DNA of 64,000 nt from Arthrobacter sp. Leaf234 (lineage in GTDB: Bacteria > Actinomycetota > Actinomycetes > Actinomycetales > Micrococcaceae), in the NCBI RefSeq assembly GCF_001422665.1, contig NZ_LMLU01000001.1, forward strand, positions 29,282-93,281. Direction: 5' to 3'. Below the pieces are notes generated by a model. That model ran no database searches. It saw nothing but the letters and a program-made list of their open reading frames with translations, and was not told the origin of the DNA. Positions 40,936 through 49,935 of this stretch are shown here, in pieces; the stretch's first letter is position 1, and each line of letters begins with the position of its first letter. Both the position numbers and the translations under genes were made by a program.

Positions 40936-41025
40936 GGTGACGTGTCCGAGCGGCCGAAGGTGCAACACTCGAAATGTTGTTTGGTGTAAAAGCCAACGTG
41001 GGTTCAAATCCCACCGTCACCGCCA
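40936..41025 (+). tRNA. tRNA-Ser(CGA), integration site of the element
   Basis: Class II tRNA: acceptor GGTGACG pairs with CGTCACC, the anticodon loop is CTCGAAA (anticodon CGA, codon TCG), with a long variable arm, discriminator G and CCA encoded at 41023-41025. Its T-arm and 3' acceptor strand are repeated at 49865-49888, so the element's attachment site restored an intact gene here. Confidence 0.97.
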
Positions 41026-41026
41026 C
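41003..41026. other. attL
   Basis: A 24-bp core identical to 49865-49888. It covers the T-loop, the acceptor 3' strand and CCA of tRNA-Ser(CGA). The match continues as TGAGAAGGCCCC after a one-base offset. Confidence 0.95.
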
Positions 41027-41028
41027 TG

Positions 41029-41074
41029 AGAAGGCCCCTGCTTCCCCGTATTTATGAGGAGGGAGGGGCCTTCT
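41029..41074 (+). terminator. Element-supplied terminator for tRNA-Ser(CGA)
   Basis: AGAAGGCCCCT (41029-41039) pairs with AGGGGCCTTCT (41064-41074). It replaces the longer host hairpin that now lies beyond attR, so the element brought its own substitute. Confidence 0.75.
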
Positions 41075-41085
41075 TCGCTGTCCCG

Positions 41086-42219
41086 TCAGGGGCGTGCCCA
41101 CATCCTGCCCACACTCGCCGCTGATACGGCATGATCTAGAGCGTCCGAAATACCGTCCAGGTCCTCATCGAAAAGGTCCGCGTAGACGTCCAGCGTCATG
41201 GCGGCAGAGCTGTGACCGAGCATCCGCTGCACTGCCTTGACGTTCGCGCCAGCCGAGACGGAAAAGCTGGCAGCGGTGTGCCTCAGATCGTGCGGCGTGA
41301 TCCGCGGTACGCCTGAGCGCTTCACGGCACCGGCGAACCAGCTCATGTTGTCCTCGTGCACCCGGGCCAGCCGGAGGTACTTGCCGTCCTCGCCCGGAAA
41401 AACTAGATCTTCTCGTTCCTTGCCCTCACATTGCTTCGCGATGTCAGCCAGCAAAAACTTTGGGAACGGCACCGACCTCTTCTTATGGCTCTTCGGGGTG
41501 CCGACCTCGATGACGGAACCAACCTGGACCGCGTTTTCCTCAACCAGCAGGCGTCTGCGCAGCATATCGAGGTGCTTGACGCGAAGCGCCGTTGCCTCGC
41601 CCCACCGGAGCCCGCAATAGGCCAGGAGAAGGATCAGTGTCGGGTACTTGCTCGTAGCCGCCAGCTCGTGAACCTGCTCGTGGCTGAGGTAAACGTGAGC
41701 TTTGCGCACTTTCCGCGGCAAGCTGACGCCACGCGCAGGATTGCTGAGAGTCCGCCTGTCGCTCACGGCATCGTCAAGAATGGCAGCCAGGATGCCATAG
41801 GCGCGGATGACAAGAGTCGCACTTTTCGGTTTACGCGCCGGGACCGCTGTTATGTCACCTTTCGTGAGATCCGAGACCCATTGCTGCACCGCGGTCTTTC
41901 GTATGTCAGCTACAGCGATGTTGCCCCACACAGGTCTCACGTGGGTCCTCCACGCCGATTCCACCGGGCGCAGCGAGGAGGGCTTGAGATGTGTCTGGCG
42001 TGCCAGCCACGCGTCTCCCAGTGGGCCGATCAGAGCCCGTGCCTCTGTTGCATCGATGAACTCGCCCCGGAGCTTGGAAACCTCAACGGTGGCGGCGAAA
42101 GCCTCGGCATCACGCTTGGTCCGAAAGCCTCGCTTGTCAGTCTGCTTCCGATCGGGCCTCCGATAGCGCACCCGATATCGGCGGCCACCGACGGTCTCGT
42201 AGGCCTCAATGGTCGCCAT
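41086..42219 (-). CDS. Tyrosine-family integrase
   Basis: A 377-aa site-specific recombinase. Seen: an N-terminal arm-binding region with RYRVRYRRPDRKQTDKRGFRTKRDAEAFAATVE, a core-binding SAM-like domain (about 65-165), and a catalytic domain. The latter has Arg in LAYCGLRWGEATAL, Lys in GTPKSHKKRSVPFP, H-x-x-R in ITPHDLRHTAAS, His in MLGHSSAAMTL and nucleophile Tyr in DVYADLFDEDL. All catalytic residues are present. The gene lies next to attL, and its 3' end contains the arm-type repeat. Its start overlaps the repressor gene by 14 nt, so repressor and integrase share one transcript. Confidence 0.97.
   Translation of the reverse strand: MATIEAYETVGGRRYRVRYRRPDRKQTDKRGFRTKRDAEAFAATVEVSKLRGEFIDATEARALIGPLGDAWLARQTHLKPSSLRPVESAWRTHVRPVWGNIAVADIRKTAVQQWVSDLTKGDITAVPARKPKSATLVIRAYGILAAILDDAVSDRRTLSNPARGVSLPRKVRKAHVYLSHEQVHELAATSKYPTLILLLAYCGLRWGEATALRVKHLDMLRRRLLVEENAVQVGSVIEVGTPKSHKKRSVPFPKFLLADIAKQCEGKEREDLVFPGEDGKYLRLARVHEDNMSWFAGAVKRSGVPRITPHDLRHTAASFSVSAGANVKAVQRMLGHSSAAMTLDVYADLFDEDLDGISDALDHAVSAASVGRMWARP
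41095..41113. repeat. Left arm-type repeat
   Basis: TGCCCACATCCTGCCCACA, identical and in the same orientation at 49762-49780. It starts 69 nt inside the attL core and overlaps the last codons of the integrase gene. It holds two TGCCCACA units. Confidence 0.75.
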
Positions 42220-42697
42220 CGCTCTGCGCTTTCGGGTTCCACGGCATTTTCAGCCCACTCATGGTGAATTGACTCCGCTCAACCTTCCCCTCTGCTTTCG
42301 ACGTAGAGCTCTTGACCTTGAACCAGGAAGGAAGGGAATCGGCTTGAAAACGGAGCACTGTGACTTCACCCAGAGGCTTCTCCCCAACAGCCCACTTCCA
42401 AAGTTGAGCATTGCTAACACGATTACCCGCAAGATCGCCCTCCTCCGACTGGCGACCGTGCGGAAGCAGCAGTGAAAGTGGTGACACGTTCAGCACTAAG
42501 GCCAGAGCCATGAGGTCATCAACGTCCACCCTGCGGTCTCCAGCCTCGATGCGCCGTAACCCCAAGGGCGGAATGGGCCGCCCCACATCAGCGAGCCGCC
42601 GAGAGAGCTCAGCGTAGGTCATCTCCCCGCGGGCCCGTTTCACGTTGCCCATCACTTCCCTGCCAGTCGCACCTAGTGCGTGTTCTTTGCCTGCCAT
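42206..42697 (-). CDS. XRE-family repressor
   Basis: A 163-aa DNA-binding protein. Seen: an N-terminal HTH, VKRARGEMTYAELSRRLADVGRPIPPLGLRRIEAGDRRVDVDDLMALALVLNVSPLSLLLP, of the Cro/C1 type. A C-terminal region of unknown fold follows. It lies first in the repressor-integrase operon. Its ATG is 6 nt after a TAGTCT -10 box, so the message is probably leaderless. The GATCAAAAAT sites in its own promoter make autoregulation likely. Confidence 0.87.
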   Translation of the reverse strand: MAGKEHALGATGREVMGNVKRARGEMTYAELSRRLADVGRPIPPLGLRRIEAGDRRVDVDDLMALALVLNVSPLSLLLPHGRQSEEGDLAGNRVSNAQLWKWAVGEKPLGEVTVLRFQADSLPSWFKVKSSTSKAEGKVERSQFTMSGLKMPWNPKAQSDGDH

Positions 42698-42703
42698 ACG
42701 CCC

Positions 42704-42811
42704 AGACTAGGGATCAAAAATAGAGGTGTCAAGATCAAGCTTGCGCATGCTCGTTCAATGGTGGTTACATGACATTACGAGATCAAATTTGACCTTAAAG
42801 CGATCAAAAAT
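42704..42811. promoter_or_regulatory. Lysogeny-type control region of the element
   Basis: On the minus strand TTGACA (complement of 42727-42732), a 17-nt spacer and TAGTCT (complement of 42704-42709), 6 nt before the repressor ATG. GATCAAAAAT lies inside that spacer (42712-42721) and again just before alpA (42802-42811). Further GATCAA half-matches are at 42733 and 42781, the latter as GATCAAATTTGA containing the palindrome TCAAATTTGA. The region is markedly AT-rich. Confidence 0.72.
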
Positions 42812-42820
42812 GGAGGAATA

Positions 42821-43027
42821 GTGGAGAACGATCTGATGACGCCGTCCGAGTTGGCAGCACGACTGGGCAAGTCTCGACCGGCACTTGCCCAGTGGAGGTA
42901 CCTAGGAGTCGGGCCACAGTTCATCAAGCTTGGACGAAACATCCGCTACCGACGGCGAGATGTCGAGACTTGGCTGGATCGGCAGACAATCAGCCGCACT
43001 GGCGAGCAAGTCGGGAGCGCCCAATGA
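42821..43027 (+). CDS. AlpA/MerR-like helix-turn-helix protein (probable excisionase)
   Basis: A 68-aa DNA-binding protein with MTPSELAARLGKSRPALAQWRYLGVGPQFIKLGRNIRYRRRDVETWLDRQ, the short winged-helix of the HTH_17/excisionase family. Such proteins direct the integrase towards excision or activate element genes. GTG start behind GGAGG (42812-42816). It is divergent from the repressor, and its stop overlaps the next gene by ATGA. Confidence 0.88.
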   Translation: MENDLMTPSELAARLGKSRPALAQWRYLGVGPQFIKLGRNIRYRRRDVETWLDRQTISRTGEQVGSAQ

Positions 43028-43737
43028 AACGGAGAGGGTTTTCCCCCTTGACCTGGCTGGCCGAGATGCTCCGGACTCCCGAGTTGCACGGACAGGATAA
43101 GGCGCGGCTCGTCGGTGCGGCGATGCTCAGGTACGCCCGCGCGGACGGAAGCAACGCCCACCCGGGACGCGTTCGGCTCGCGGCGGACCTAAACGTGAGT
43201 ACGAACACGATAGACAGGGCACTCCAGCGGTTGGTTGCCGCCGGATGGATGGTTCGAGTCCAATCTGGATCCACCAGCTCTATACGCAACTGGGCTGACG
43301 TCTATGAACTGAGAATGCCGCCGACAACGGTTTCCGCTCGGCCCGTCCCTGATGAGCCCCTGCCTGCGTATGTAAAACATGGACGTCCTTCCCACTCATT
43401 CCAGCCCTCTGATCCTTGGGATCAGTCACCAAATCCCTTGGACCAGTTCCCAAATGGTGCTGACCACTCACCACTGCTTTGGGCACCCAACTGCTTTTCT
43501 CCATCTGCCTTTTCACATCTTTCCGATTCGGGGGAATCGGGACCGCCTGGCGGCGGCCACGAGATCGCACCCCTAGGCGGCACGGAGCTCGACGTAGACG
43601 ACATAGATCAGATCTCTGCCCAGGTGAACTACTTCGAGGGGTACGAGGAAGGGACGGCGCAGGGAATGCTGCTGAGCGGCAGTCACCCGAAGGCCGTACT
43701 GAATATGATTCGCGCGCAGAGAGAAGGACGAAGGTGA
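43024..43737 (+). CDS. HTH_36-type winged-helix protein (replication/regulatory)
   Basis: A 237-aa protein. Seen: residues about 10-105, LTWLAEMLRTPELHGQDKARLVGAAMLRYARADGSNAHPGRVRLAADLNVSTNTIDRALQRLVAAGWMVRVQSG, form the HTH_36 domain found in plasmid and phage replication initiators. The rest is Pro/Ser-rich, with a conserved-looking end QGMLLSGSHPKAVLNMIRAQREGRR. The start overlaps the excisionase stop (ATGA) and the stop overlaps the next start (TGATG), so three genes are coupled. No origin was identified. Confidence 0.78.
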   Translation: MKRRGFSPLTWLAEMLRTPELHGQDKARLVGAAMLRYARADGSNAHPGRVRLAADLNVSTNTIDRALQRLVAAGWMVRVQSGSTSSIRNWADVYELRMPPTTVSARPVPDEPLPAYVKHGRPSHSFQPSDPWDQSPNPLDQFPNGADHSPLLWAPNCFSPSAFSHLSDSGESGPPGGGHEIAPLGGTELDVDDIDQISAQVNYFEGYEEGTAQGMLLSGSHPKAVLNMIRAQREGRR

Positions 43738-43994
43738 TGGAGCTAGAAGACGGAGTCCGAGACACACTGGCGCTCGTGCTGCCGTGCCAGCGCGACAGAG
43801 ACCGCGCTATCGCAATCGCGGTGAAACTGACGGAGGACGAGCTTGTGTCCGCGGGGCCCACGGGCACGGAACCATCTATCGTCGTGCCTGTGAGGCGGGA
43901 CAGGTACGGCCGGCTGGACTGGTCATCCGTCGTGCCAGTGAACCCCGAGTCCGCTGCCGACTGGGATGCTCGGGTTTGGAGGGAGCGTCCCTGA
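43737..43994 (+). CDS. Small protein of unknown function
   Basis: An 85-aa protein with no recognised family. It has a helical N-terminal half (RDTLALVLPCQRDRDRAIAIAVKLTEDEL) and a short strand-rich region VPVRRDRYGRLDWSSVVPVNPES. It is translationally coupled to the HTH_36 gene and ends 16 nt from the convergent HNH gene. Confidence 0.62.
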   Translation: MELEDGVRDTLALVLPCQRDRDRAIAIAVKLTEDELVSAGPTGTEPSIVVPVRRDRYGRLDWSSVVPVNPESAADWDARVWRERP

Positions 43995-44010
43995 GGAGCA
44001 CGTCCGACCG

Positions 44011-45186
44011 TCAGGTATTCAGTGCGTGACCCTGCCACGTGCGCCATGCCTGTTCAAGAGCATTTTTATGAGGTCGTGCGGGTAGGTGATGCAACGTTTG
44101 CACAGTAATTCCAAGCTGCGAAGCGCCCGGCCCCTTCCGACTCACCTCAATAGCGAGAGTCTGCGGATTGATTCCCCAGTAGCCGCGGTCGAGGGCGAGA
44201 TGATGGTTGGCGCAGATTGCTAGACCGTTACGGGCGTCGTCGGACCCTTTGTTCTTTTTGGGCACCAGGTGTGCGGCTTGTACTAGTCCAGGAACAGCTG
44301 TGGGGCAGACCGCACAGCGTTCTTTGTATCGTGCGAGGACTGCGAAGGCGAAGCGTTTCTGGTTCGGGCGTGTTGCACGAAGTGCTTGTGCTGCTCCATT
44401 TAGTGAGTCGTCTGTGGTTGAGAAGGGGTCCTCTACTGCAGAGTTGGGCAGGAGCTCGTCATTGGTGAAGGTGACGAGGAGCGCCTTTAGGTCGTCGCTA
44501 AAGTCTTCGATGTAACCCCGGTAAACGGTCTTGGTCCCGCGCTCGGCCGTTGTATTGACGAACACGGGCATGCCGAAAGTGAAGGCAGCCCTGGCGGCTT
44601 CAATTTCGGACCTGTCTCGGGGTTTGTCTTTCGTTTGCGGGAAGTGGTAGACGACGCCGGTTTCGGTGAGCTCGTCGTCGTAGCTCGTCCCGGTATGTAG
44701 GAAGGTCAATGCGATACCGGCTGGGGAGACCACGCTGACGGTTCGCGTCTTGTCTGCGTAGATGCCTCGTTGGCCGCTGTGGAAACCTAGCTCATTCACT
44801 AGTTGCGGTCGGACTTCGGTCGGGCCGCCCTTGGCCCGCAGTTCTTCCCACATCCTGGCGCGCCGCGCTCGTTCCAGGCCTAGGGCATCGTCTTCTGTTG
44901 ACGTTATGCCCAGGCCGGTAGGCGTGAGAGACCAGTGCTGATGGGGCGACGGATGAGCGAGACCTTCGCGGACCATCCGGCTGTACTGGGTAGTGGTTCG
45001 TTTATGCCAGCGAGGCTCGTTGTTGGCCGCGCTGGGGAACGGCTCATGATCTTTTGGCGTCCAATCGAATCCCCGGTAGATACGGTTGAGCGCGGCGGTC
45101 GCGGTGAGAGTCCCGCTGGGTTCTCCGCTAAGAACGAAGAGTATACGGCGGCGTAGCTCGGGGTGCTGGGTAAGGTCGGGGGCCAT
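44011..45186 (-). CDS. HNH endonuclease with Mrr-N-like winged helix
   Basis: A 391-aa nuclease, probably a modification-dependent or type II-like restriction enzyme. Seen: residues about 8-88, RRRILFVLSGEPSGTLTATAALNRIYRG...TTTQYSRMVREGLAHPSPHQHWSLTPTGLG, resemble the Mrr N-terminal winged helix. A central region (about 115-230) is of unknown fold with GVVYHFPQTKDKPRD and PVFVNTTAERG. A C-terminal HNH_2 domain follows: CAVCPTAVPGLVQAAHLVPKKNKGSDDARNGLAICANHHLALD. No methyltransferase gene is adjacent, so type IV action is more likely. The start at 45186 is the first ATG before conserved sequence. It is less GC-rich than the flanks. Confidence 0.82.
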   Translation of the reverse strand: MAPDLTQHPELRRRILFVLSGEPSGTLTATAALNRIYRGFDWTPKDHEPFPSAANNEPRWHKRTTTQYSRMVREGLAHPSPHQHWSLTPTGLGITSTEDDALGLERARRARMWEELRAKGGPTEVRPQLVNELGFHSGQRGIYADKTRTVSVVSPAGIALTFLHTGTSYDDELTETGVVYHFPQTKDKPRDRSEIEAARAAFTFGMPVFVNTTAERGTKTVYRGYIEDFSDDLKALLVTFTNDELLPNSAVEDPFSTTDDSLNGAAQALRATRPNQKRFAFAVLARYKERCAVCPTAVPGLVQAAHLVPKKNKGSDDARNGLAICANHHLALDRGYWGINPQTLAIEVSRKGPGASQLGITVQTLHHLPARPHKNALEQAWRTWQGHALNT

Positions 45187-45621
45187 ATACGCATAATGCC
45201 CTGCTGAATAGACAATTTCTGGGAACTCGCGATCCGGCGGGCGCTGGGCGCGAAATTTTTGTCGTTTCAAGTTAAACTTTTCACAACGCCAACCTCCGGG
45301 CGCGGAGTGGTCAAGGAATGAGGCGCTTAGCGGCGTAAGTTCTGAGGGCCCTTTGCCCGTCCGGAGTGGGGCGTCAGGGACACGAGTTACGGGCACGCTG
45401 GCATGATCAGCCGAAGTGAGACCGTGGCCGGCCGTCCCGCCGCTGCAACTGTTCCGCCGACGTGCCACGCCGGCCCGGTCCTGAGGCCCTCTAGCGGGGG
45501 TAAGGGACCCGGCCTTGCTGTGACGCCGTCCGTGTCGAAAACGTGCTCCGGTTCCTCCACCCACTCCTGCGCTGACCCCTGCCATGTGGGGGGCGCTTTC
45601 CTGCCCCTGGAGGGCTGAAAA
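45187..45621. other. Intergenic region between the HNH and capsid genes
   Basis: 435 nt. The first ~100 are AT-rich and contain the palindrome AAGTT-A-AACTT (45269-45279), probably part of the HNH promoter. The rest is GC-rich; an open frame 45403-45618 is not convincing. GGAGGG at 45609-45614 is the capsid gene's ribosome-binding site. Confidence 0.5.
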
Positions 45622-46809
45622 ATGAGCAATACACGCAAAGAATCCATCCGGACCGCTGCAGCTGCTGCTGCGAAGCGCGCCACAGATATTGCAGCGAAGG
45701 CCGAAGCCGATAACCGCGATATGAACGCCGACGAGCTGGCGGACTACGGCCACGCGATGACGGAAGCGAAGGACGGTCTGGCACGGCTCCGGCAGCTCGA
45801 CAAGGACGACGACGTAACCGAGCAAATGCGGAAGCTGAGTAATGACCTTTTCGGACCGGGCGACGGCGGGTCCCACAGCGGCGCGAAGCGCCTGGCGCTG
45901 ACCGGTGCCGGCCGGAAGGAATCCGCCCGGGCCATCGCCGGGAAAATGATGACCGGCGACGGGTTCGGTAGGAAAGCCCTCACGGACTCCGGCTCAATCG
46001 TGACCCCGGTTCCCATCCAGGGCGACGTTGCGAGCATGGGTCGGGTGCCGGCCTCGCTGCTGGAAGTCCTCCCGGTCCTCCAGCACGAGTCGCCCACCTT
46101 CAAGTTCCTGCGCCAGACACGGCGGGAGAATAACGCGGCGATTGTCGCGCCGGGCGCGGTGAAGCCGACCAGCCTCTATACCGTCGAGGGCGCGCCCGGC
46201 GAGCTCCGGGTCTTCGCTCACCTGTCGGACCCCGTGGACAAGTACCTGCTGCAGGACGTCGCGAGCCTGGAACGGTTCATAGCTGACGAGATGCTTGCCG
46301 GCCTCAACGCCGCGGTGGAGGCCGAAGTCCTCAACGGCGACGGCACGGCCGGGCACCTGCGCGGCATCCTCGCGACCTCCGGTATCCAACTGCAGGCCGC
46401 GGCCGCCGATGACGTGACGACGGTCCGCGCCGGCATTACGAAGCTCGAAGCGGCCGGGCATGACGCGTCCGTGATCGTGCTGTCTCCTGCAGGATGGGCG
46501 GACATCGAAACGGCGCGCAATACCTCCGGCGCGTTCGACCTCGCCGGCCCCGTGGACCGGGCCGCGCGGAAGCTGTGGGGTGTGCAGGTGGTTCTCTCCA
46601 CGACGGTGCCGGCTAATACTGGGCTGGTCTTTGATGCCTCGGCCCTGGCCGTGGACACGGATCTCGCTGGCATCGAAACGAAGTGGAGCGACGCTGGCGA
46701 GCTCTTCGACCGGAACCAAGTGAAGGCCCGCGTGGAGGGCCGATTCAGCGTTTCCGTTTTCCAGCCCTCCGGCGTCGTGGAATTCACGCTGCCAATGCTT
46801 ACGCCGTAG
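45622..46809 (+). CDS. HK97-type phage major capsid protein
   Basis: A 395-aa capsid subunit. Seen: an N-terminal helical scaffold-like (delta) region of about 110 residues, KRATDIAAKAEADNRDMNADELADYGHAMTEAKDGLARLRQL, then the HK97 fold beginning SGSIVTPVPIQGDVASMGRVPASLLEVLPV. Typical elements follow: FKFLRQTRRENNAAIVAPGAVKPTS, KYLLQDVASLERFIADEML, VLSPAGWADIETARNTSGAF, WGVQVVLSTTVPANTGLVFDASAL and the end VEGRFSVSVFQPSGVVEFTLP. It is full length with a good ribosome-binding site, so not an obvious relic. No protease, portal or terminase gene accompanies it, and its GC content is higher than that of its neighbours. Confidence 0.92.
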   Translation: MSNTRKESIRTAAAAAAKRATDIAAKAEADNRDMNADELADYGHAMTEAKDGLARLRQLDKDDDVTEQMRKLSNDLFGPGDGGSHSGAKRLALTGAGRKESARAIAGKMMTGDGFGRKALTDSGSIVTPVPIQGDVASMGRVPASLLEVLPVLQHESPTFKFLRQTRRENNAAIVAPGAVKPTSLYTVEGAPGELRVFAHLSDPVDKYLLQDVASLERFIADEMLAGLNAAVEAEVLNGDGTAGHLRGILATSGIQLQAAAADDVTTVRAGITKLEAAGHDASVIVLSPAGWADIETARNTSGAFDLAGPVDRAARKLWGVQVVLSTTVPANTGLVFDASALAVDTDLAGIETKWSDAGELFDRNQVKARVEGRFSVSVFQPSGVVEFTLPMLTP

Positions 46810-46872
46810 GTGCGAATACGGTGAGCGAGAAGTTGCCAATGTAGGACGCGGAGCAAAGCATGAGGCGTGGCG

Positions 46873-47715
46873 CTAGTGGGACGCCGGACTCCAGCGGCCC
46901 CGCCTCCACGTCGCCCGCCCCAGTTTGACGACTGATCGGTCGGCTTTTTGGTTCAGGTGAACGGTCGGTGCATTCTTCGGCAGCGGTGGGAGCACCCGCC
47001 CCTTATCCCTCGCGAAGTCCTCTGCTCGTGCGAAGAGCTCGTACCGTTCCTGGTCCGCATAATTCTCTTCTCGCTCATCGTTGACTGTTTTCCATGCGTC
47101 TGCATAAGCAGCGTAGTGAGGTAGGGCACCAGGATCACTCCTGACGGAACTGACGTGCTGCTGCAACTTCCTGTCCACCCACGAGGTGATTTCGCGTACG
47201 CGGCGTTCATAGGGTCTCCAAGGCTGTATGTACGCCGCGAACATGCCGTCGGTATCTAGGAAGTCGAAGGCTTCTCTTAAATCCTTCTCGAGGCGTGCAT
47301 CGTGCAACCAACTGAGCTGGACCTCGCACTGCTCTATGAGGTCAAGCACCTGTCTGTTCACATCCGCCTTTAGGCGCTGAGGGTGCCAGCCCTCGTCATC
47401 GTAGATCTGACCAACTGTCGCCCCCCGCAACTTTTGATTGAGAACGACGATTTCGCGCGCTGCACTGTGCGAAAGACTGGTCATCTGACGTTCCGTTACT
47501 GCATCGCGGTCGACTATCCAAAACCAAAAGGCAGCTACTACCGCAACCATTCCTCCTAGAGCGGTGCCAACTGCCGAGCTCCAGAAAGTCTCTTGAGTGT
47601 CGGACTCCACAGCGAAGTAAATCCCATATGCGAACAGCGCGCCGGTGATGACTACGAGGCAAACGAGTGTGAGGAGGTGACGTGATCCCGCTGGTTTAGT
47701 TCTGCGCACGAGCAC
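46873..47715 (-). CDS. Two-TM membrane protein of unknown function
   Basis: A 280-aa protein. Seen: two N-terminal helices (LLTLVCLVVITGALFAYGIYFAV and TALGGMVAVVAAFWFWIVD), then a soluble, helical domain of about 210 aa with LIEQCEVQLSWLHDARLEKDLREAFDFL. This topology is common among membrane-linked defence or sensing proteins of phage origin, but no family is recognised. GTG start; a GTG two codons later is an alternative. It is AT-richer than the chromosome and lies on the same strand as the PIN/ImmA pair. Confidence 0.68.
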   Translation of the reverse strand: MLVRRTKPAGSRHLLTLVCLVVITGALFAYGIYFAVESDTQETFWSSAVGTALGGMVAVVAAFWFWIVDRDAVTERQMTSLSHSAAREIVVLNQKLRGATVGQIYDDEGWHPQRLKADVNRQVLDLIEQCEVQLSWLHDARLEKDLREAFDFLDTDGMFAAYIQPWRPYERRVREITSWVDRKLQQHVSSVRSDPGALPHYAAYADAWKTVNDEREENYADQERYELFARAEDFARDKGRVLPPLPKNAPTVHLNQKADRSVVKLGRATWRRGRWSPASH

Positions 47716-47981
47716 AGACGTTACACCTGAGGCTTGGCAGCTCCTCGGTCGTAGCGGGCGCTATGCAGCGGTACGGCAAGTCCGGTCGCGTGATTCTCGT
47801 TCTTCGCCCCATGGGGAAGGGGGGTTCGAATCAACGAGTCATCATCTGCCGGCCCCGAGTGCCGGTAGGGGTTCCTCCCCCTCCGATGCGTCGAGGGGGT
47901 CGCGCGCACGCGCGCGAGCCGGCATTTGCTGCCCGTGCTCACGGACGCTTGGCAGATGCGAGTTCGCGCCTTTAGAATCCG

Positions 47982-48512
47982 CTACTGCAACTCACGATAG
48001 TGGGTAGGCATGCGACGAGGATGCCTACCCAAATCGCACATCTGCTCCAAGAGCTGAAAGGCCTCTTGCGCCGTCGTGTCGCCCATCGCGACTAATGTCT
48101 CAAAGGTGGACCGCGTATCCCAGGTCATTATTCCTAGTTGCTGGGCGAAATCGAAGGCGTCGTAGTCGTCCGTAATCCAAATGGCATCTTGATACGCCGC
48201 GTCGTTGTGTATCAGATAGCAGGTCTCAGCCTCACCGAGATGTTGTGTGGGCTTCAGAGCGCTGCCGGACAGGCGCGCCTGGCGTATCCGGTCCACCTGT
48301 TCAGCATCATCGATCTCGATTGGCTCCCCTAACAGGGAGTGATCCATCAGCGCAGATAAGCTGGGCCAGACGTTTGACGACTGCCGGGCTTCGGCATAGA
48401 CGGCCTGCGTCCACCGTCCGCGCTCCGACAGCACCGCCTTCAGAAGATCAATCCTGTCGACACAGGCATAGTTGCAGAGCACGGTGTTATCCGGAAACAG
48501 AAGGGCCGTCAC
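47982..48512 (-). CDS. PIN-like protein (probable toxin)
   Basis: A 176-aa putative RNase. Seen: MTALLFPDNTVLCNYACVDRIDLL with the first PIN-type Asp, LGEAETCYLIHN with the central acidic residue, and WITDDYDAFDFAQQLGIMTWDT with the third Asp pair, i.e. the D...E...DD pattern of PIN domains. The GTG start overlaps the stop of the XRE-ImmA gene by 4 nt, so the two are coupled. Toxin-antitoxin use is inferred from this arrangement. Confidence 0.75.
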   Translation of the reverse strand: MTALLFPDNTVLCNYACVDRIDLLKAVLSERGRWTQAVYAEARQSSNVWPSLSALMDHSLLGEPIEIDDAEQVDRIRQARLSGSALKPTQHLGEAETCYLIHNDAAYQDAIWITDDYDAFDFAQQLGIMTWDTRSTFETLVAMGDTTAQEAFQLLEQMCDLGRHPRRMPTHYRELQ

Positions 48513-49612
48513 TTCTGAATCGCAACCGGCCGTAGTAGGTCGATCACATCATGACTCGACATTTCCAAGAGGGCTGCCAATGGCCGAGCTGACGTCGCTC
48601 CGTTGTAAAAGTGCTCTAGGTGCTCATTCAGCAGGCGGGGCGGAATACGACTTGCCTCAGACCGCGCGCGTTCGCTACTGATGAGCTGGGGTCGGCCAGC
48701 TGTAAGGGCGCAGCTTTCCGCGGTTACGCTCTGCCACTTCGAGACGGAACTGCTAGTAAGCAGACCGAGATTGACCAGCCGCCAAGCCATTGACGTAGGT
48801 GACACCCGGAAGTGGTTTACTAGCGCAGCGAAGTGCGCCGGGTCACCTAGATTCTGAGCCATTTTGCGTACTTCGTCAGCAGGCATGAGGAAAGAAGCCG
48901 CGAACGAGTTGGCTCGCTTTTCTGACATCTGGCTGCTGTGAGGAGGAACCGCCTCCGCTATGAGCGTTTGAGCGTCTCCCGCCAGGATGTGACCAAGTTC
49001 GTGCGCCAAGGAGAACCGCTGCCGAGCCCAATTGCTCGTGCGGTCCAATACAATCAGCCGGTCCAACTCCGTCTGCCAGGCACAACCATCAAGACCACCA
49101 GGGAGACTCACAATAGCCACGTCTACTGAGAAGACTTCTTCCAGTAGTGCTGGGAGGTCTAGACTCGCTGTCGAATCCATACCGCGATCGCGCACCATCG
49201 ATAATGCATCAGTAGCAAGCCGGTCGGCTTGATCGATATACATGGTAGTTGCGGCCAAATTCGGCAGAGGTGCTATTGCCCTTGGTGGATCGGCAAGCAT
49301 TTGCAACTGCTCGCTCGCGGTGCTGAATCTGCTTACAAGGTCAGAAATCTGGTCGTGAGAGGGCGCAGCAGCGAGGGCGGTCCGGGCAGCGATGGCCGGA
49401 GTTGCCTTGTGCTGGCCAGTCAAGAGCCATTCAACCGTCGTTCCGGCTGATTGAGCTGCTAGCGCGAGCTCTGTAGTGGTGAATTTTCGAGTACCGCTGA
49501 GCGATTTACTGAGGCGGTCGGGGGAAGTGGCGATGAGTTCGGCGAAGTCGGTCTGGTTGAGACCGCTCGTCTGCATGATTTGCCGAACACGCTCTACGAG
49601 TGTGTCGTCCAT
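48509..49612 (-). CDS. XRE-ImmA/IrrE metalloprotease (probable antitoxin/regulator)
   Basis: A 367-aa two-domain protein. Seen: an N-terminal XRE HTH, RVRQIMQTSGLNQTDFAELIATSPDRLSKSLSGTRKFTTTELALAAQSAGTTVEWLL, then a C-terminal ImmA/IrrE (COG2856) peptidase with zinc motif FSLAHELGHILAGD and EKRANSFAASFLMP. The pairing with a following PIN-like gene is a known toxin-antitoxin layout in phages and prophages (RosmerTA-like). The ATG at 49612 was chosen because TAGACT (complement of 49620-49625) ends 7 nt upstream. Confidence 0.85.
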   Translation of the reverse strand: MDDTLVERVRQIMQTSGLNQTDFAELIATSPDRLSKSLSGTRKFTTTELALAAQSAGTTVEWLLTGQHKATPAIAARTALAAAPSHDQISDLVSRFSTASEQLQMLADPPRAIAPLPNLAATTMYIDQADRLATDALSMVRDRGMDSTASLDLPALLEEVFSVDVAIVSLPGGLDGCAWQTELDRLIVLDRTSNWARQRFSLAHELGHILAGDAQTLIAEAVPPHSSQMSEKRANSFAASFLMPADEVRKMAQNLGDPAHFAALVNHFRVSPTSMAWRLVNLGLLTSSSVSKWQSVTAESCALTAGRPQLISSERARSEASRIPPRLLNEHLEHFYNGATSARPLAALLEMSSHDVIDLLRPVAIQK

Positions 49613-49761
49613 GAGTACAAGTCTAGCGCGGTCCATTGCGATTTTCGCAACTGTACGGCCCCTGATCCGAGCAGGTTCCGCCCAAGCGAGAGAGGACAGA
49701 CGACCGCGCGTGTCAGCCACCGGCGCATGCGTACCTTTCGTCGACCACCGTGCACACATAC

Positions 49762-49780
49762 TGCCCACATCCTGCCCACA
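49762..49780. repeat. Right arm-type repeat
   Basis: An exact 19-bp copy of 41095-41113 in the same orientation, ending 84 nt before the attR core. A partial unit, TGCACACATA, precedes it at 49751. Confidence 0.75.
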
Positions 49781-49864
49781 TCAACACTGAGTTGGAGTGG
49801 TTGTCTGTGACGTATTGCCGCGACGTACCGTGGATTTCGAGCTAGCTCACAGGGTGGAAGAGGT

Positions 49865-49888
49865 TTCAAATCCCACCGTCACCGCCAC
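49865..49888. other. attR
   Basis: The second copy of the 24-bp tRNA-Ser 3' end, followed by the original host sequence. It marks the right boundary of the element. Confidence 0.95.
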
Positions 49889-49891
49889 CTG

Positions 49892-49935
49892 AGAAGGCCC
49901 CGGTTCCCCTGCAGGCAGGGGAACCGGGGCCTTCT
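49892..49935 (+). terminator. Original host terminator of tRNA-Ser(CGA)
   Basis: A perfect 21-bp stem (49892-49912 with 49915-49935) with a 2-nt loop, containing AGAAGGCCCCGGTTCCCC. It is now separated from the tRNA by the element. Confidence 0.85.

Follow-up and report, generated by a model that had tools for sequence, protein, structure and literature searches.

The window analyzed here is a stretch of 64,000 nucleotides from Arthrobacter sp. Leaf234 (contig NZ_LMLU01000001.1, positions 29,282 to 93,281). Within it a mobile element of 8.9 kb (41003-49888) is inserted in the chromosome at the 3' end of a tRNA-Ser(CGA) gene. Its integrase and capsid genes are both intact and, compared across relatives, evolve under purifying selection; the capsid gene is the sole recognized virion gene among the ten element genes scanned with hidden Markov models (HMM). 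We lean, with little more than even confidence, towards regarding the element as a satellite similar to the phage-inducible chromosomal islands (PICIs), which uses its own shell and has the major capsid protein as its only virion gene. A capsid under selection without portal, protease and terminase makes most sense if a helper phage provides those.

The capsid gene and its relatives

The capsid protein (395 amino acids, aa) is full length and of HK97 fold, and its position as the only virion gene, already claimed in a preliminary description of this DNA, was borne out by the scan. No match to models of the large terminase subunit (TerL), portal, protease or adaptor was obtained in the window, and the element shows none of the remnants or decay of other virion genes by which defective prophages are defined. 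An AlphaFold2 model computed from 27 sequences has a mean predicted local distance difference test (pLDDT) score of 74, with values below 50 between residues 80 and 140. Residues 1-77 are mostly helical in the model and resemble a delta domain. Foldseek search with this model returned the capsids of D3, phiXacJX1 and HK97 (E 1.3e-21 to 7.9e-20). An encapsulin is also in the list, at rank 41, as would be expected if the capsid had been recruited to form a compartment of non-viral kind, like that of encapsulins; the chance of this is very small, since phage capsids rank best, the protein retains its helical N-terminal domain and the gene travels with integrase genes.

Decay of the capsid gene, set beforehand as an observation that would count against a satellite, was not seen. 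Among the three closest elements the capsid ratio of nonsynonymous to synonymous substitution rates (dN/dS) is 0.155-0.172 at dS 0.31-0.78, and none of the 9 capsid copies in the genus has an internal stop. Values elsewhere are 0.12 and 0.27 for two other pairs of lone capsids (capsids without recognized head genes), 0.11-0.18 for the integrase and 0.12 for the membrane protein of the element.

The distribution of such capsids was analyzed in 345 genomes of the family, the census unit being an open frame between stops rather than an annotated gene. PF05065 capsids occupy 90 places in 74 genomes, and PF04860 portals were found at 33 places, spread over 32 genomes. Forty-nine of the capsid places lie in an open frame 380 residues long or longer; a PF04860 portal accompanies 22 of these at a distance of up to 15 kb, and 27 lack one. 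As a portal outside PF04860 would escape this census, it was complemented by scanning the loci with TerL, portal, protease and adaptor models. Thirty lone loci were scanned (19 family loci outside the genus, the genus loci, and L026, L033 and L077), the window being scanned apart. TerL and portal models match all 23 phage controls; none of the four models matches 29 of the 30 lone loci, and the remaining locus, L077 (not one of the 27), has an adaptor match. A genome-wide search for the PF04586 protease gave no match in 22 of the 23 genomes with a lone capsid, and a match in 5 of the 8 phage-type controls. An integrase or recombinase accompanies the capsid in 18 of the 19 family loci outside the genus. 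Taken together, the 27 of 49 places and the head-gene scans indicate that lone capsids are at least as common in the family as full phages of this capsid class.

Several limits define these counts. PF03354 (TerL) is insensitive, with matches in 3 of the 8 phage-type controls; its one match among the 23 genomes with a lone capsid, in G128, lies on a different contig from the capsid. The absence of terminase is therefore based on the TerL model built in this analysis; phrog_2, with matches in 11 of 14 control genomes, was dropped as a terminase probe. Short capsids (frame below 380 aa) stand outside the 27 of 49; TerL is present in 12 of 19 such loci (L142-L161 without L157) and not in 7. Contig ends truncate some lone loci, the weakest case being L015 (genome G001), cut about 1 kb before the capsid; in L014, L033, L125 and L135 the contig ends soon after or inside the capsid. 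Beyond the family, the same plan is found in Microbacterium (L026) and in an IMG/VR contig (L033). The window capsid as single query had no match in IMG/VR; an alignment search there yielded 49 loci, 47 with portal or protease, L077 with the adaptor only and L033 with none of these. Ten capsid loci from the genome_contigs set comprise 7 full phages and 3 lone capsids (L023, L024, L026).

The capsid tree has 81 members. Of the 27 lone capsids placed in it, 21 are set apart from all other members by a single branch (support 100/100). This split holds after adding the phage capsids closest to them, and no sampled phage capsid falls inside. The lone label requires 3 changes in this tree; in the first tree it required 4, against a mean of 22 when labels were shuffled, and 0 of 500 shuffles were that low. 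Capsids not recognized by the capsid model were left out, namely 4 of 31 lone (L122, L123, L128, L133), 3 phage (L163, L165, L167) and 1 short capsid (L089).

Within the genus, PF05065 is present at 12 places in 11 of 38 genomes: nine are lone (eight genomes) and three phage-like, with portals in G022 and G033 and a terminase near the capsid in G004. The two closest elements, L010 and L011, have capsids 91% and 82% identical to that of the window; they carry serine recombinases, lie in Tad pilus loci, and have the capsid and the preceding non-coding stretch in common with the window. A lone capsid of 32% identity in G017 adjoins tRNA-Ser(CGA) as well. Close capsids with other integrases and sites indicate that the capsid persists as integrase and site change. 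The search of related genomes that had been proposed thus revealed relatives of the same plan at the same and at other sites.

As a separate observation, L010 (G002), L011 (G006) and L013 (G008) are all serine-recombinase elements with a lone capsid in or beside Tad pilus genes (TadC/CpaF-like, by eye); three insertions there suggest a common attB.

The integrase family of the window is found at 9 places in 8 of the 38 genus genomes, the window's own included. Four members, L082, L083, L085 and L086, at tRNA-Ser(CGA) or tRNA-Tyr, may be satellites of this integrase lineage that have no capsid; none was found in any of the four, L083 and L085 being cut by contig ends. A full prophage at the tRNA-Ser(CGA) site, which would have contradicted the preliminary description, was seen in none of the loci compared, namely L014, L083, L085 and L086, of which three are truncated at a contig end.

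A decayed prophage in which the capsid gene was kept by chance would agree with the small size of the element. Moreover, the main clade leaves out 6 of the 27 lone capsids placed in the tree, which indicates that lone capsids arose more than once or that some are relics. For the window element this origin is highly unlikely in view of the dN/dS values and the absence of stops in the genus copies; no second virion gene was detected in the window, 21 lone capsids fall in one split, and integrase type differs around close capsids.

Borders, genes and cargo of the element

The features of the element and its borders are as follows (coordinates, strand where assigned, description):

40936-41025, plus: tRNA-Ser(CGA), integration target, restored by the element (ARAGORN)
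41003-41026, plus: attL core, 24 bp, same as attR core (direct repeat; empty site in G007)
41029-41074: terminator-like hairpin resembling one at 49892-49935 (inverted repeats I1, I2)
41086-42219, minus: tyrosine integrase, 377 aa (PF00589 5e-23, phrog_1 2.7e-68)
41095-41113, plus: end repeat, two TGCCCACA units 11 bp apart, candidate integrase arm site
42206-42697, minus: helix-turn-helix (HTH) repressor-like protein, 163 aa (phrog_11503 6e-26; HTH_3 under Pfam cut-off)
42821-43027, plus: excisionase-like HTH_17 protein, 68 aa (PF12728 6e-10, phrog_66 5e-9)
43024-43737, plus: HTH_36 protein, replication-initiator-like, 237 aa (PF13730 1e-7; phrog_27344, 391, 270)
43737-43994, plus: small open reading frame (ORF), 85 aa, C-terminal part kept upstream of the capsid in L010 and L011 (tblastn)
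44011-45186, minus: HNH nuclease, 391 aa, between small ORF and capsid (PF13391 2e-10; PADLOC HNH 3e-11)
45285-45621: conserved non-coding stretch before the capsid, candidate packaging site or leader
45622-46809, plus: HK97-fold major capsid protein, 395 aa, N-terminal helical delta-like domain (PF05065 1.5e-26)
46873-47715, minus: membrane protein, 280 aa, two hydrophobic stretches by eye (no family match)
47982-48512, minus: PIN-like protein, 176 aa, candidate toxin (PADLOC PDC-S70 6e-5 only; no Pfam match)
48509-49612, minus: HTH-ImmA (Peptidase_M78) regulator, 367 aa (PF06114 1e-16, phrog_2439 7e-29, PADLOC capP/RmrA)
49751-49780, plus: right-border end repeats (repeat search)
49865-49888, plus: attR core, 24 bp (direct repeat; empty site in G007)

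The borders named in the preliminary description were confirmed. A direct repeat pairs 41000-41047 with 49862-49909, the exact core being 24 bp (41003-41026 and 49865-49888). Beyond the core, likeness extends into a terminator-like hairpin at each end, so that the element restores both the tRNA end and a similar terminator. In the relative G007 the joined flanks match one continuous stretch (query 1-249, 94%), i.e. an empty site; the own genome matches them as two separate halves. A 19-bp repeat occurs just inside both ends and nowhere else in the window (3 matches with at most 3 mismatches, 0.01 expected). Paired TGCCCACA units also flank L012 and L082, relatives at tRNA-Tyr, which suggests that they are integrase arm sites. 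GC content is about 0.64-0.72 in the flanks against 0.56-0.65 across most of the element, with the exception of one 500-bp block within the capsid gene at 0.69. The element thus has the specific attachment site and integrase that characterize PICIs.

The integrase and repressor genes read leftward, followed rightward by HTH_17, HTH_36 and the small ORF, then HNH_2 leftward and the capsid rightward; the three genes after the capsid, for the membrane protein, the PIN-like protein and HTH-ImmA, read leftward and bring the total to ten. HMM matches agree with the integrase, repressor and excisionase named in the preliminary description. As to replication genes, the window element has an HTH_36 initiator-like protein only, and primase-like genes are present in L013 and L016. 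The nuclease, described earlier as Mrr/HNH, matches HNH families and nothing labelled Mrr; it has no tblastn match in the relatives compared and therefore looks like a further insertion.

The non-coding stretch is 76.8% identical to L011 over its full length and 78.5% to L010 over 45371-45625 only; among the lone and phage loci, good matches are limited to these two. A search of the genus gave a 22-bp match in G011 (E 5e-4). The possible identity of the non-coding stretch as a cos or pac site was examined against 50,697 phage records in distant mode with no match, and it remains a candidate.

Neither the membrane protein nor the small ORF has any family match among Pfam, PHROG and PADLOC profiles. 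This could be taken to mean that the element packages itself by fully encoded but unrecognizable portal, terminase and tail genes. We consider this the least probable of the explanations: the element has about 8.9 kb and ten genes, most with other roles, and the leftovers are the membrane protein and an ORF of 85 aa. A 96% identical copy of the membrane protein adjoins the capsid of the Arthrobacter agilis element, which is the 91% identical one, and the protein has no match in IMG/VR or in plasmids. In L017 (11871-12401) and L026 (11250-11744), too, the lone capsid gene faces a convergent gene, here for a small protein that is hydrophobic over a stretch near its N-terminus; no similarity of these proteins to the membrane protein was detected.

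Genes after the capsid vary by element. The HNH nuclease and the genes between capsid and attR probably serve as defence cargo and would be expressed while the element is resident. Of the PIN-ImmA pair recognized earlier, the ImmA part matches PF06114 and the PIN part is weak (PDC-S70, no Pfam match); the HTH-ImmA protein is a candidate partner of the PIN-like protein. In L013 the capsid is followed by PDC-M02A/B, a candidate defence pair of PADLOC (E 7e-69, 6e-139), in L015 by an ImmA protein. L011 has a DUF3800 protein near the capsid, where the right border of the element is not fixed, and L026 a PIN_3-like protein marginally under the Pfam cut-off. Several further downstream ORFs of relatives have no family or PADLOC match. 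One such ORF, after ImmA in L015 (2786-3796, G001), appears nucleotidyl cyclase-like by eye and is a possible defence gene, with no Pfam or PADLOC match.

A proposed helper-dependent satellite

The preliminary description had read the element as a phage satellite carrying antiphage genes. The satellite part fits the relatives of the same plan, the intact capsid and the defence candidate in the same slot of L013; the antiphage role of the cargo is a reading from domains only. The layout of integrase, divergent regulators, initiator, virion gene and cargo is that of PICIs, as far as described in the portion of PMC6092414 used for comparison. By this scheme infection by a helper phage would lift the repressor, excisionase and integrase would excise the element, and the HTH_36 protein would initiate replication. 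The element capsid protein would form, or co-form, a shell around the helper portal; helper terminase would fill it with element DNA, possibly via the conserved non-coding stretch, and the helper tail would finish the particle. The expected outcome is satellite-sized particles, at a cost to the helper.

Further components of such a system were found in relatives. Many lone loci encode, ahead of the capsid, a small protein (about 65-115 aa, helical by eye). A model of this partner protein, made from sequences chosen by eye upstream of lone capsids, matches 15 distinct lone loci (17 rows, two of them repeating a locus) and no phage locus in a search of 139 loci with 27,744 ORFs; as it was built from lone loci, only its absence from the phage loci has value as a test. 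In the window element no clear copy is present, the small ORF giving a marginal match (E 0.003 in a 2-sequence search). A Terminase_4 small subunit adjoins the lone capsid in L017 and L016. The capsid-less L082 encodes a protein linked to the Terminase_4 group only by a model that includes it, with no Pfam match. In L016 (6801-7822, G016) the terminase small-subunit gene appears partly duplicated and is broken by runs of N.

A number of points weigh against a satellite with its own shell. Its weak points are the missing prohead protease, which a delta-like domain ordinarily requires, and the distance to known phage capsids, the best-ranked of which are about 31% identical to the window capsid. 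The six lone capsids outside the main clade count here as well, as do the integrase relatives L082, L085 and L086 without detectable capsid, and likewise the G010 genome. The end repeats are not found in L014, L016, L084 and L085, and L083 has a single unit. No terminase small subunit is recognized in the window element. The element has no near match in phage DNA and the non-coding stretch no phage match in distant mode; plasmid records also gave no near match to the element. No helper phage was identified by phage capsid ranking or phage DNA comparison, and the host genome is without a PF04860 portal, so that a helper would come from outside or be of another type. Finally, excision, induction and packaging by a helper are predictions made from sequence alone.

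The main rival is a phage-interference element, in which the lone capsid would poison helper head assembly as a dominant negative or decoy, and particle transfer would not be its role. No packaging gene is recognized in the window element, defence-type cargo is carried by it and by L013, and a prohead protease is missing, all of which would suit interference. We nevertheless hold it to be rather unlikely: a shell-forming fold conserved across a deep clade is not obviously needed for this purpose, two relatives have added a terminase small subunit, and co-assembly is doubtful with the best-ranked phage matches of four lone capsids, which are only 28-37% identical to them.

Extending the satellite reading to the relatives, we tentatively propose, somewhat short of even confidence, an old lineage of satellites that supply the shell protein only. 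These would form hybrid particles with helper portal, terminase and tail, with a capsid clade of their own and a dedicated small partner, and would be at least as common in the family as full prophages of this capsid class. Such a lineage would be the minimal form of a capsid-forming satellite.

If this is true, a satellite swaps the shell of its helper alone and takes all head partners (portal, protease, terminase) from it, and the contacts deciding capsid size and portal compatibility in HK97-type heads become directly testable. The common small "remnant prophages" of actinobacteria would then be candidate active satellites spreading defence genes, and harmless soil bacteria would offer simple elements for testing shell swapping.

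Comparison with known systems

To our knowledge, classical PICIs are without phage structural genes. Phage satellites in general are said to have none in the relevant passage of PMC13376191. Classical PICIs and Staphylococcus aureus pathogenicity islands (SaPIs) are outlined in parts of PMC6092414 and PMC12409344 as having an integrase at one end, regulators, a gene for replication, at times a terminase small subunit, and accessory genes that frequently occupy the opposite end. The window element shares the terminal integrase, the regulators and the accessory genes, and its HTH_36 gene is a candidate replication gene. It differs in encoding a full major capsid protein and is therefore not filed as a classical PICI. 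SaPIs remodel the helper capsid by small helical proteins, e.g. CpmB and Rcm, and bring no capsid protein, according to PMC12409344; the partner protein of the lone loci, small and helical by eye, is like these size switchers in those two traits.

Capsid-forming PICIs (cf-PICIs) encode capsid, protease, portal, connectors, terminases and HNH but no tails (PMC10690885), and in a tree of phage capsids theirs appear as three separate radiations (PMC11389934). The window element is similar in having its own capsid, of a similar fold (EcCI2, 9gyi, Foldseek rank 35); unlike cf-PICIs it has no full head module, but a capsid and an HNH protein of another setting. The Streptomyces satellites Mulch and Flayer, as introduced in PMC10690885, have a module of terminase, portal, capsid, scaffold and adaptor, and virulent helper phages are known. 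An actinobacterial host, a capsid of the satellite's own, an HNH gene and a membrane protein are common to them and the window element, whereas the latter is without the terminase-portal-scaffold-adaptor module. An actinobacterial prophage survey scored as "intact" any element with an integrase and one or more structural domains, and took many of the smaller ones for possible satellites (PMC10023795).

The closest systems are the Mycobacterium candidate PICIs of PMC10654092, defined in its pertinent passages by integration machinery and a major capsid protein gene. They include phiRv1 and phiRv2, so that the comparison with phiRv-type elements made in the preliminary description was apt. Tyrosine integrases at tRNA genes and a serine integrase elsewhere are reported in these passages, as are terminase genes or cargo in some elements; mobilization by phages is there given as not yet demonstrated. 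Like them, the window element combines integration machinery with a capsid and is not a full prophage. It differs in host genus, in its single capsid, in a head-gene absence measured with controls and in its cargo (the PEST system was not sought); further differences are a capsid clade apart from sampled phages and, in relatives, a family of small upstream proteins. The open-licence literature yielded no description of single-capsid elements in Arthrobacter, nor of a capsid clade of such elements. The integrase and capsid plan is already known from Mycobacterium, and the lone-capsid elements of Arthrobacter are a variant of it.

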